From contig WQZD01000017.1 in the NCBI GenBank assembly GCA_009780915.1, positions 1 to 64,000 of the forward strand: a DNA stretch of 64,000 nucleotides. Direction: 5' to 3'. A program made the position numbers and the translations under genes. Positions 2,697 through 55,349 of this stretch are shown piece after piece. Position 1 is the first letter of the stretch. Each line of letters starts with the position of its first letter. The stretch comes from Propionibacteriaceae bacterium (GTDB lineage Bacteria > Actinomycetota > Actinomycetes > Propionibacteriales > Propionibacteriaceae). The notes below the pieces were generated by a model. It had not been told where the DNA came from, ran no database searches, and was given only the letters and a program-made list of their open reading frames with translations.

Positions 2697-3074
2697 ATGG
2701 ACATGATCAACAATGCGAACAAGGCCGAAATCACAGCACTGTTAGCGCGCCTACCAGGGGTGGCAACCGTGGGCCATCCGCCACCTGATGAATGGCCCAG
2801 CCAGCGGGTCATCGTCACGACGGAGTCAGGCTCATGCCATCTGGTTGATCTCACCCAGGGCGAATACCGGCGATTGCGCAGCCCACACGACCCATTGGCG
2901 TCCGATCTGCGGCAGGACGGCGAGGTCATCGAGGTACTGGCCGCTCACTTGCCCGTTGTTGGCTGGGAGTGGACCATCTGGATCACAGGCTTGAACCCGC
3001 TGGCCGACTACACTGAACGTACGACTACCCCAGTCGCCGAGATCGAGTGGATCAACGTTGAGCCACCTCCGTAA
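2697..3074 (+). CDS. Hypothetical protein, 125 aa
   Basis: I do not recognise this protein. The ATG at 2697 is preferred over an in-frame ATG at 2580 because the sequence looks protein-like only from MDMINNANKAEI onward. The product is acidic and mixed alpha/beta, with no signal peptide and no membrane segment. A run HLVDLTQGEYRRL is followed by a hydrophobic strand EWTIWITGL. It stands alone between the adhesin and the DUF3841 gene. It could be a small immunity or regulatory protein, but nothing in the sequence decides this. The ribosome site is weak. Confidence 0.45.
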   Translation: MDMINNANKAEITALLARLPGVATVGHPPPDEWPSQRVIVTTESGSCHLVDLTQGEYRRLRSPHDPLASDLRQDGEVIEVLAAHLPVVGWEWTIWITGLNPLADYTERTTTPVAEIEWINVEPPP

Positions 3075-19191: not shown

Positions 19192-19270
19192 TCCCCGGTT
19201 GGTCTTCCGGCAGGGCCCGCCTGACTTTGAATCAGGATTAGCGAAGTAGGTTCGACTCCTACCCGGGGAG
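19192..19270 (+). tRNA. tRNA-Gln(TTG)
   Basis: The acceptor stem TCCCCGG/CCGGGGA (19192-19198 with 19263-19269) is followed by discriminator G. The anticodon stem CCTGA/TCAGG carries the loop CTTTGAA, giving anticodon TTG (Gln). The T-arm GTAGGTTCGACTCCTAC is canonical. The variable region is somewhat long (about nine bases). tRNA-Gln beside glmU is a known actinobacterial arrangement. The last 13 bases plus flank (ACCCGGGGAGCGA, 19261-19273) are duplicated at 19350-19362. Confidence 0.85.
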
Positions 19271-19273
19271 CGA

Positions 19274-52302: not shown

Positions 52303-53181
52303 TCAGCCCGTCCCCGTCGCTCCGCACGTCCCCGTGGGCGGGCCGCCGTAGCCGTACCAGCTCTTGGCGCCGACGTTGAAGGCCAGGATGAGTTGGTCGC
52401 CGCGTACTGAGATTCCTTCTAGCTCGTCGGTCGTGTCCAGTTGATAGCTGGTCACGTAGGAGGCGGAGCCGGTGGTCGGCCAGGTCCACACAGAGATCCA
52501 GTTGTTGGTGGTGACACCCGTCTCGGGGGAATGAGGGATGTAGATCTGGGACGAGTCGCAGCCGACATCTTGATCGGTTCCCGTGAAGGACGCCAGGGCG
52601 TCTCCGCTGAGGACGGTCTTGTCGATGACCTTCCTCGACGTGGTGAAGGTGGAGTTGTACTCCCAGTAGGTTCCCGCCGACGAGACGACGACATACCGCT
52701 TGTTCAGAGAGTCGAAACAGACCCCCCACGCGCTGCGACCGATGTCTTGAGTCCCGACGATGGTCAGCGACTCGGGGTCGATGAAGACCAGTGGAGAGAT
52801 GTATCCTGCTGGATTATTGTCACTTTTCGTTGTCGCGACGAGCCTCATCCCGTACGGGTCGTACGTCAGCGCGTTGCCATGGCCGAGGTCCATCACCTGA
52901 CTGTGCGCCACCAGTTGCCCCGAGAGGAGGTTGAACTTTCCCATGATGATCTTGCCGTCGCCCGCGGAGAAGTTCACGTACAGGTACACGCCATCGGTGG
53001 CCGACCCCTGGACGGTCTTGTAGGCCGTGAAGCCCGACCCCAAGCTGAGGTGGGCGATCTCGGTCGTCTCCATGGTCGCGTACGTCTTCGGCTCCGCCTG
53101 CGCGTCGCCCGTCGGGGCCATGGCCATCGCGCCCAACACCACGACCAGAGCGATGCCGAGCACGAGAATATATTTCTTCAT
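52303..53181 (-). CDS. Secreted beta-propeller-like protein of unknown role
   Basis: The ATG at 53181 (GATGGGAGCTGCC upstream) gives 292 aa. A signal peptide is clear: KKYILVLGIALVVVLGAMAMA, with cleavage near AQA. The mature part is rich in beta strands with repeated patterns such as VYLYVNFSAGDGKIIMGKF, LVFIDPESLTIVG and LNKRYVVVSSAGTYWEY, which suggests a small beta-propeller of secreted sugar- or peptide-binding proteins. Two Cys pairs (VCF/VGCD and TCGATG at the end) may form disulfides. I do not recognise a named family. Confidence 0.7.
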   Translation of the reverse strand: MKKYILVLGIALVVVLGAMAMAPTGDAQAEPKTYATMETTEIAHLSLGSGFTAYKTVQGSATDGVYLYVNFSAGDGKIIMGKFNLLSGQLVAHSQVMDLGHGNALTYDPYGMRLVATTKSDNNPAGYISPLVFIDPESLTIVGTQDIGRSAWGVCFDSLNKRYVVVSSAGTYWEYNSTFTTSRKVIDKTVLSGDALASFTGTDQDVGCDSSQIYIPHSPETGVTTNNWISVWTWPTTGSASYVTSYQLDTTDELEGISVRGDQLILAFNVGAKSWYGYGGPPTGTCGATGTG

Positions 53182-53285
53182 GGCAGCTCCCATCGTCACA
53201 GCACCGCGTAGGCCCCCCGGCGGATGCACGTGACACTATCCTGACATCTCTATCACGTCCAGGCAAGACCCTCGAAGACCAGTGG

Positions 53286-53325
53286 AGAAAAAAGAGGGCC
53301 TGCGGTAAAAAACCGCAGACCCTCT
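53286..53325 (-). terminator. Rho-independent terminator
   Basis: Minus-strand AGAGGG-t-CTGCGGT pairs with ACCGCAG-g-CCCTCT (13 pairs, one mismatch, loop TTTTT), and six T follow. It ends transcription from the folE-folP-folB/K side or the candidate small RNA. Confidence 0.9.
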
Positions 53326-53451
53326 CTACGGCAAGGCACTGGGAGGCGAACCTTGCCGTAGCCAATGAAGGCTTCAGCTGAAATGGCTTTAGCCTGTCGT
53401 CTCCCAATTGCCCACTACACGCCTTCGGCTTCGTCGCCCGACCTCGTGAAC
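53288..53451 (-). ncRNA. Candidate small RNA ending in a strong terminator
   Basis: On the minus strand a -10-like TAAGCT (53463-53458) would start a transcript near 53451. It passes through GGGAGACGACAGG, an 11-bp hairpin CTACGGCAAGG/CCTTGCCGTAG (53361-53326) and a terminator. The hairpin loop is TTCGCCTCCCAGTG. Its CCTCCC can pair with Shine-Dalgarno sequences, or with the GGGAG at 53405-53401 to form a pseudoknot. The gap from the folB-folK stop and the strong structure suggest an independent RNA, but it could be the 3' UTR of the fol operon. No known family is claimed. Confidence 0.4.
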
Positions 53452-53562
53452 ACTGTCAGCTTAGCACAGAGTTCGGGAAAATTGTGGGGTACGACCGATG
53501 CAAAGAACGTACTCAGAGGGCATTTGATGGCAACGGAAGGAAATATGAACGCATGCGTGGGC

Positions 53563-54489
53563 TCACGGGTGGAAAAGGTCATCGGGGACACGGGCGACCT
53601 CTTGGCCGGTCAAACCCGCCAGAAGATCGGCGACTGACTCACGTCCCATGACCGCGTCAGGGTCGAGATCCAGCCAGGGCGCGAGGACGAAGGCGCGTTG
53701 GTGGGCTCTGGGATGCGGAAGGGTCAGTTGGGGGGTCTGCCAGATCTCGTCGCCCGCGCAGATCAGATCGATGTCGAGGGTACGGGGACCGTGGTGGACG
53801 TCTCTGGTCCGATGGGCCTGGGCCTCGATCTCCAACCCGACACGCAAGAGCTCCGGCGCAGGAAGGGTGGACACTCCGATGACGATGGCGTTGAGGAAGT
53901 CGTCCTGGACGATCGTCGACTGCGCGACGGTCTCGTACACCGGGGACACCCGTACCCGGTCCAAGTCCAGCCGGGCTATCAGAGCCGACACGGCGAACTG
54001 CAGGTAGTCCCACCGCGGCTCGATGTTGGACCCGAGACAGAAGACGACCTCGCGGGCCGCCACCGTGCGGGCGGCCTGCCAGGTGGACCGCACGTCGGTG
54101 AACCCCACCATGAGCGGGGCCTGGGGCTTGTGGACCTGGACGCGCAGATACTCGAAGGGGAACCGGGCGAGCAGAGCTTCGCCGACCCGCGCCGCCAAGG
54201 TTTCGATCAAGTTGAGCGGGGACGCTTGGACGACCTCCACGACGAGGGAGGACACCTCGCCGTAGTCGATGGTGGTCTCCAGGGCGTCGGACCGCGCGAT
54301 GGGCGCCATGTCCACCCACCACGTGACGTCGATCAGGAAGGGCTGCCCGTCGCGACGCTCATGGTCGAAGACGCCGTGATAAGCCCAGGTCTGCAACCCG
54401 GTGAGGTCCATGCGGTCGAGGGTGGCCATACGCTCCACGTCGGCCCGAGTCAGCGGCCGGCTCACGGAGGGCGAACCGTACCTGGTCAT
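53563..54489 (-). CDS. folK: FolB-FolK fusion (dihydroneopterin aldolase / HPPK)
   Basis: The ATG at 54489 overlaps the folP stop (ATGA), giving 308 aa. Residues about 28-140 are FolB: GLQTWAYHGVFDHERRDGQPFLIDV, TIDYGEVSSLVVEVV and VQVHKPQAPL. Residues about 148-300 are FolK: VFCLGSNIEPRWDYLQFAV, VYETVAQ, HGPRTLDIDLICAG and LPHPRAHQRAFVLAPWLDLDP. The enzyme thus runs two consecutive steps to 6-hydroxymethyl-dihydropterin diphosphate, the FolP substrate. Fusion of these two is known in several Actinobacteria. It is the last gene of the fol cluster. Confidence 0.94.
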   Translation of the reverse strand: MTRYGSPSVSRPLTRADVERMATLDRMDLTGLQTWAYHGVFDHERRDGQPFLIDVTWWVDMAPIARSDALETTIDYGEVSSLVVEVVQASPLNLIETLAARVGEALLARFPFEYLRVQVHKPQAPLMVGFTDVRSTWQAARTVAAREVVFCLGSNIEPRWDYLQFAVSALIARLDLDRVRVSPVYETVAQSTIVQDDFLNAIVIGVSTLPAPELLRVGLEIEAQAHRTRDVHHGPRTLDIDLICAGDEIWQTPQLTLPHPRAHQRAFVLAPWLDLDPDAVMGRESVADLLAGLTGQEVARVPDDLFHP

Positions 54490-55349
54490 GTCGGGCACCC
54501 CTGGATCCCGGTCTCGCCCGCGCCGCGCACGGCTTCGGCGACCGCGACGGCGGCGCGGTGCTCGGCCACGGTGTGGGTACGCACCGCCCAGACCCGCTTG
54601 CTGGCCAAGAGCGCCGTGACGGCGGCCGTGGCCGCGTCGCGCTGCCACGGCTCGGTGGCATGGTCGTACGCCTCGGACAGGAATCGTTTGCGGGACACGC
54701 CCCACATGACGGGGAACCCCAGGGCGGCGATCCGGTCGACGTTCGCGAGCAGTTCCCAGTTCTGTGCGGCGGTCTTGCCGAAGCCGACTCCGGGGTCGAG
54801 GATGAGCTGTTCGGGGGCGATCCCGGCCTCCATGGCCGCGTACGCCCTCTTCGTGAGCTCGGCGCAGACCTCGGGGACGACGTCGACGTGGGTGAAGCTG
54901 TGGTCGAAGGGGGTCCGCCAATGCTGGAGGACGTACCCCGCCTGGTATTGGGCGGTCACCGTCAGGATCTGCGGATCGGAGAGCCCGCCCGTCACGTCGT
55001 TGATGATGCGCGCGCCAGCCTTGAGCACGGCCTGGGCCACGGCGGCGTGCATGGTGTCCACGCTGATGACCAGGCCGGCGGCCGCGAGGGCCTCGACGAC
55101 GGGGACCACCCGGGCGATCTCCTCGGCCTGGTCGACCGGCTTGGCGCCGGGCCGGGTGGACATCCCGCCCACGTCGAGGATCTGCGCGCCTTGGGCGGCC
55201 AGTTCGATGCCGAAGTCGATGGCCTGGGTCCAGGTGCGATGGGTGGTCTCGGAGAAGGAATCGGGTGTGACGTTGATGATGCCCATGACCTTGGTCGGAC
55301 CAGGGGAGAACAGGGCCTCGTCAGCGCGTGCGTGAGTGGTCGGTGGCAT
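54486..55349 (-). CDS. folP: Dihydropteroate synthase
   Basis: The ATG at 55349 has GGAGG at a five-base spacing. An upstream in-frame ATG at 55361 overlaps the site. The 287-aa protein joins p-aminobenzoate to the pterin diphosphate and is the sulfonamide target. It has VMGIINVTPDSFSETT, ILDVGGMSTRPGAKPV, IINDVTGGLSDP, LILDPGVGFGKT and the final R-x-H (AVRTHTVAEH). It lies between folE and folB-folK with overlaps. Confidence 0.95.
   Translation of the reverse strand: MPPTTHARADEALFSPGPTKVMGIINVTPDSFSETTHRTWTQAIDFGIELAAQGAQILDVGGMSTRPGAKPVDQAEEIARVVPVVEALAAAGLVISVDTMHAAVAQAVLKAGARIINDVTGGLSDPQILTVTAQYQAGYVLQHWRTPFDHSFTHVDVVPEVCAELTKRAYAAMEAGIAPEQLILDPGVGFGKTAAQNWELLANVDRIAALGFPVMWGVSRKRFLSEAYDHATEPWQRDAATAAVTALLASKRVWAVRTHTVAEHRAAVAVAEAVRGAGETGIQGCPT

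Follow-up and report, generated by a model that had tools for sequence, protein, structure and literature searches.

A putative small RNA gene downstream of folB-folK

The stretch of DNA analysed here, referred to as the window, comprises 64,000 nucleotides of a Propionibacteriaceae bacterium (contig WQZD01000017.1, positions 1 to 64,000). On its minus strand, between a folB-folK fusion gene and an ORF at positions 52303-53181, lies what looks like the gene of a short regulatory RNA. The features of the locus are given below; the six genomes in which the element was found, the genome of the window (G000) included, are called carriers.

53563-54489, minus strand: folB-folK fusion gene, the upstream neighbour (Pfam FolB and HPPK)
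53458-53466, minus strand: extended -10 promoter-like box TGCTAAGCT with no clear -35 element, recurring upstream of the hairpin in all six carriers
53287-53451, minus strand: predicted small RNA transcript of about 165 nt, with start and end deduced from the sequence
53401-53405, minus strand: GGGAG, complementary to the loop in the window and not conserved (shuffle test of pairing)
53326-53361, minus strand: 11-bp hairpin with loop UUCGCCUCCCAGUG (inverted repeat, fold, covariation in the six carriers)
53341-53346, minus strand: CCUCCC within the hairpin loop, invariant in the alignment of the six carriers
53284-53325, minus strand: terminator with a 14-bp stem (53325-53293) and a U-rich tail (inverted repeat, fold, relatives)
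52303-53181, minus strand: downstream ORF with a start that reads like a signal peptide, no Pfam match, not conserved at this position

Transcription of this RNA and its exact ends are predicted, the start being placed about 7 nt past the -10 box and the end within the U tract. The arms of the hairpin (53351-53361 and 53326-53336) pair at 11 of 11 positions around a 14-nt loop with CCUCCC at 53346-53341, and the terminator stem (arms 53312-53325 and 53293-53306, followed by TTTTTCTCC) adjoins this hairpin directly on its 3' side. Both the C-rich-loop hairpin and the terminator, which had been proposed in an earlier sequence-only reading of this DNA, are present on the minus strand. Approximately 90 nt of variable sequence separate the -10 box from the 11-bp hairpin. 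Folded together (53365-53285), the two hairpins reach -51.1 kcal/mol (z -9.9, with none of 200 shuffles as good); the fold of the whole 196-nt stretch gave a z of -4.5.

A promoter-like box recurs in all carriers

A scan of positions 52500-54500 for the sigma-70 consensus returned no promoters. The promoter-like site that had been suggested at this locus nevertheless has a counterpart in the extended -10 box at 53466-53458, which recurs in six of six carriers. The motif TGNTANNNT occurs exactly once per carrier within the 150 nt before the loop, at -120 (G000), -114 (G018 and G016), -113 (G002), -130 (G010) and -111 (G006), a range of 19 nt. In 2000 shuffle sets the motif never occurred in all six carriers at once, a figure that is generous because the -10 motif was picked after inspection of the sequences. 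Within 700 nt after folB-folK the box was found once in each of the six carriers and was absent in all seven non-carriers examined, the scan having included seven of the 13 non-carriers. In that scan, five of the six carriers and two of the seven non-carriers (G001 and G015) also had a site flagged as terminator-like; the terminator copy of G016 is imperfect and was missed. In four carrier genomes, 56-99 nt separate folB-folK from the box. The distance is 487 and 506 nt in G016 and G018, where the hairpins are displaced along with the box and box and hairpins together are found about 490-640 nt beyond folK.

Distribution within the genus

The element is present as a single copy in the window genome. 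A DNA search of 96 genomes identified four relatives of the same genus that match the hairpin part (E values 2.5e-9 for G006, 3.1e-9 for G018, 5.0e-9 for G010 and 9.0e-8 for G002), and in all four the element lies downstream of folB-folK on the same strand. The sixth copy (G016) came from scanning the folB-folK loci of all 19 genomes of the genus for an open loop containing CCTCC, with each genome represented by a single locus in the orientation of the gene. Carriers thus amount to six of the 19 species of the genus, and each has the element on the folK strand, downstream of that gene. The search of 198 family genomes gave no credible copy in the 192 beyond these six.

A covariance model built from all six carriers (R1) scores these at 67.7-88.1 bits, with the next best match among the 198 family genomes at 29.1 bits under strict filters and, when the search was repeated with laxer filters on the 19 genomes of the genus, at 28.7 bits. 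As R1 contains its own matches, two held-out tests were carried out. The model without the window (R2) recovered positions 53360-53290 at 78.8 bits (5.8e-15; next best 10.2), and the model without G016 (R3) recovered G016 at 44.2 bits (2.6e-6) as the sole match in 17 loci of the folB-folK region. In a search of 394 genomes from the class, no score exceeded 35 bits apart from that of the window; three class genomes at 29.6-34.3 bits have, as read, ordinary terminators. Weak R1 matches had E values of 0.044-1 in the family, 0.006-0.046 in the class and 0.04-4.3 in the genus. Twelve of these loci were read, of which ten look like ordinary terminators and two (L077, L079) like chance occurrences of CCTCC in GC-rich sequence without a terminator; L079 also appears to be coding on reading.

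A DNA match in G074 (E 8e-4) spans query bases 35-61, outside the hairpin. Three matches to the pattern with two mismatches fall in G011, G012 and G013, genomes in which R1 has no strong match. The loop pattern was found in ten stretches of named genomes, six of them outside the Propionibacteriaceae (four archaeal, one acidobacterial, one omnitrophotal); the one of these six that was read (L091) looks like chance in a coding region. No matches were obtained in the viral contigs searched, and phages and plasmids gave short chance-like matches only (E at least 0.1 among the matches listed, which leave out seven plasmid records), none from plasmids covering 80% of the query.

In an unrooted FolB-FolK tree, a weakly supported branch (63/80) separates the six carriers from the other genomes. 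None of 500 label shuffles gave as low a number of changes, and the bootstrap range was 1-3 changes. A single gain is the simplest reading of the carrier distribution. Four carriers were matched to Propionibacteriaceae MAGs: G018 to Lab288P4bin17, G002 to Nt197P3bin23, G006 to Nt197P3bin38 and G010 to Emb289P3bin87. Their sample codes stand for the termites Labiotermes labralis, Neocapritermes taracua and Embiratermes neotenicus (PMC7024585).

Conserved structure and loop

In the alignment of the six carriers, the loop sequence CCUCCCA does not vary. The 5' half of the RNA is not conserved across all six. The two-hairpin fold gave z values of -8.2, -5.2, -5.7 and -4.5 in four relatives (G016 left out). 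In the first hairpin, 92.1% of the cells pair, compared to a shuffled mean of 83.9 (none of 500 shuffles as high), two-sided changes occur in four of 11 pairs (reached by 19 of 500 shuffles) and the covariation score is 0.376 (reached by none of 500); the number of further pair types, reached by 42 of 500, is unremarkable. For both hairpins together, 85.3% pair (2/500), two-sided changes occur in eight of 24 pairs (2/500) and covariation is 0.319 (0/500), with further pair types at 93/500; this alignment leans towards structure because it was fitted to the model. Covariation from six sequences is moderate evidence. The check for covariation in relatives, named beforehand, thus gave stem pairs that covary, with a first-hairpin score that no shuffle reached, and the proposal of a dedicated small RNA gene is supported by the conservation, in five relatives, of the promoter-like box, the hairpin with its C-rich loop and the terminator. 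Of the opposite outcome, read-through transcript from folB-folK only together with no conservation, the second half is contradicted by this finding.

The upstream GGGAG fared less well. It is present at 53405-53401 and complementary to the loop, as had been noted, but its being part of a conserved design is not supported. With assumed transcript starts, pairing equally good was obtained in 26 of 300 shuffles for the window (G000) and in 34 for G018; the other four carriers are at chance (179 for G016, 200 for G002, 222 for G010 and 174 for G006, each of 300). GGGAG-loop pairing was therefore rejected as a conserved feature.

Relation to known RNA families

All Rfam matches at the element stay below the cut-off of their family. 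The best match below threshold in the window is BjrC68 (RF02353; 31.8 bits against a gathering score of 39), a small RNA of the Bradyrhizobiaceae; among the matches listed for the carrier loci it appears for G002 (29.2 bits) and G018 (22.7 bits), and the other four loci, that of the window included, are unlisted, so that their absence carries little weight. The element resembles BjrC68 in having a hairpin followed directly by a terminator hairpin, but it scores below the cut-off of that family, which comes from another phylum. The family ctRNA_pGA1 (RF00236), a counter-transcript of a plasmid replication gene, reached 22.9 bits against a gathering cut-off of 45; the element does not fit this family by its place either, lying between folB-folK and a non-conserved ORF, and plasmid matches are short and chance-like. 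Elsewhere in the window, a tRNA-Gln (TTG) at 19192-19271 (plus strand) reached only 29.1 bits in Rfam, with a cut-off of 29.

Among high-GC Gram-positives, it is in Mycobacterium and Streptomyces that small RNAs have been described best. At the element, the Rfam matches with E values up to 10 do not include the family 6C (RF01066). A search for 6C in the 19 genus genomes at E 0.001 also gave no match, at a sensitivity that is doubtful because control matches were so few (in one of 14 control genomes, none over the cut-off). B11 (6C) has two loops with strings of cytosines, the loops of 6C/B11 in mycobacteria pair with G-rich 5' UTRs, and in M. abscessus changes in the B11 loops or the 5' UTR ended repression, which compensatory changes restored (PMC10470900). 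The element shares with 6C/B11 that it would be a small RNA of a high-GC Gram-positive with a C-rich hairpin loop. It differs in having one C-rich hairpin and a terminator instead of two C-rich loops, and a CCUCCC loop instead of a pure C run; the layout of 6C, two hairpins with C-run loops, was not found, as the second hairpin of the element is the terminator.

Small RNAs with a predicted C-rich terminal loop also occur in the Streptomyces scr5583 and scr1434 groups (PMC3765725); these are actinobacterial as well, and the likeness is one of description. GsrN of Caulobacter and PmaR of Agrobacterium have C-rich loops that pair with mRNAs (PMC5869019, PMC6234868). The loop of GsrN is its best conserved part and the RNA is confined to one family; GsrN activates katG, and PmaR raises most of its targets instead of blocking ribosome-binding sites (same papers). 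The C-rich loop is what the element has in common with these two RNAs; their hosts belong to another phylum than the window organism. We call the element a C-rich-loop small RNA as a kind, judged by its sequence features, and do not assign it to a named family.

Search for target sites

CCUCCC could pair with GGGAGG-type ribosome-binding sites by complementarity. Genomes were screened for CTGGGAGG followed by RTG after 2-9 nt. Carriers contain 221 such sites (G000 65, G002 32, G006 31, G010 33, G016 31, G018 29), and six non-carriers contain 35 (G013), 43 (G003), 34 (G014), 22 (G001), 46 (G015) and 44 (G005). Both groups exceed a reversed-pattern control (9-27 in carriers, 12-20 in non-carriers). 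The pattern is not clearly commoner in carriers (29-65 sites per genome) than in non-carriers (22-46), and the densities, about 13-23 versus 8-16 sites per Mb, overlap.

From the 221 carrier sites, 60 with an ATG start and a spacing of 4-9 were picked by eye; GTG starts, other spacings and two qualifying sites near contig ends were left out. A simple start test was passed by 14 of the 60, and among the 60 sites no start site was common to more than two genomes. Two sites resemble each other (L147 in G000 and L182 in G010); by reading, both lie at a nuoD-nuoE-like junction, which carries CTGGGAGGTGTGGAYCGATG, an 8-nt complement of the loop beside the start codon. This nuoE-like site is a candidate target, and it may be a coincidence, as the end of the upstream gene is encoded there. 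A second candidate target is CTGGGAGGTGACCGATCRTG before a start that reads as glpC-like in G006 (L193, on G006:C5); the identical string occurs in G002:C29:4697-4716. L176 and L195, and by eye also L204, lie inside a longer frame and were set aside as looking like coding coincidence. As the 60 of 221 sites examined yielded no convincing target and no start site common to more than two genomes, the pairing mechanism rests on analogy and on the invariant loop. By analogy with 6C/B11, pairing of the loop with ribosome-binding sites is plausible.

Proposed function and alternative explanations

Because it has its own promoter-like box, an invariant C-rich loop, a terminator and a place after a folate-synthesis gene that is kept in a clade, the element is probably a genuine gene regulator, of a known type but not previously described. 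The promoter-like box, the hairpin, the invariant loop core, the terminator and the locus are all kept in one species group. By its sequence, the element has what characterizes the class of C-rich-loop base-pairing small RNAs, namely a putative promoter of its own, a conserved loop predicted to be unpaired and C-rich, and a terminator. The reading we favour, with somewhat better than even confidence, is that it encodes a small RNA of about 165 nt that acts in trans and whose loop would pair with GGGAGG-type ribosome-binding sites. RNA polymerase would start at the extended -10 promoter after folB-folK and stop at the 14-bp terminator, where read-through from folB-folK would stop too. The 3' part would form a stable hairpin presenting GCCUCCCAGU in an open loop, with the terminator hairpin directly after it. 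This loop would seed pairing with the ribosome-binding sites, which is predicted to lower (or otherwise change) translation of several mRNAs. The best reading by analogy is that it may work like mycobacterial 6C/B11, which does not imply membership in that family.

The position after folK on the same strand in all six carriers, together with the terminator, would also fit an element that merely ends and stabilises the 3' part of the folB-folK transcript and has no function in trans. We consider this unlikely: termination requires no second hairpin, no invariant loop in such a hairpin and no promoter-like box kept upstream, and in G016 and G018 box and hairpins have moved together away from folB-folK, to about 490-640 nt from folK. 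These points argue for a separate RNA gene, as do the lack of conservation of the downstream gene and of a small ORF common in place and length. The former bears on a leader or attenuator acting in cis on a downstream gene for a secreted protein, for which a same-strand ORF with a start that reads like a secretion signal in G000, G002, G016 and G018 would speak. In G006 the element is followed by a convergent ORF and in G010 by repeat-rich sequence, and with a downstream protein that is not conserved such a leader is very unlikely. The protein at 52303-53181 showed no similarity to the downstream proteins of G002 or G018, which are weakly similar to each other (3e-8, single comparison).

That the element encodes a small protein is highly improbable. 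Short ORFs occur in the predicted transcripts of five of the six carriers, but they differ in place and length, and the predicted transcript of the window has no closed ORF of at least 10 codons on the minus strand. A trans-acting RNA that binds a protein or sponges another RNA would equally suit an invariant loop, which could serve any ligand, and would agree with the finding of no mRNA target in the 60 of 221 sites examined; as no partner is known and a strong Shine-Dalgarno sequence is complementary to the loop core, we regard this as quite unlikely compared to pairing with ribosome-binding sites.

If the small RNA gene is real, it would be a new family for RNA annotation; a search of a limited collection of papers for Propionibacteriaceae together with small RNAs found none. 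Being compact, probably of single origin, kept at one locus and invariant in its loop core, such an RNA would make a clean case for testing the gain, by a lineage, of a regulator that blocks ribosome-binding sites. More speculatively, and only as a tentative proposal, this group of Propionibacteriaceae, at least four of whose six members are from termite guts, could have gained a new global small RNA that blocks GGGAGG ribosome-binding sites through just one loop of the GCCUCCCAGU type. It would then be a counterpart of 6C/B11 that arose independently, in a lineage in which 6C was undetected.

Sequences following the putative RNA

Different genes whose starts read like secretion signals follow the RNA in several carriers: in the window (52303-53181, minus strand) and in the loci L005 (1806-3041) and L003 (1828-3045). 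In G010 (L004, about 1540-2260 and 2880-3000), repeat-rich ORFs (SSSVRPSSSVR..., GDKTHRSGED...) lie after the RNA; a candidate reading of these stretches is a tandem-repeat array or the remnant of a surface protein.
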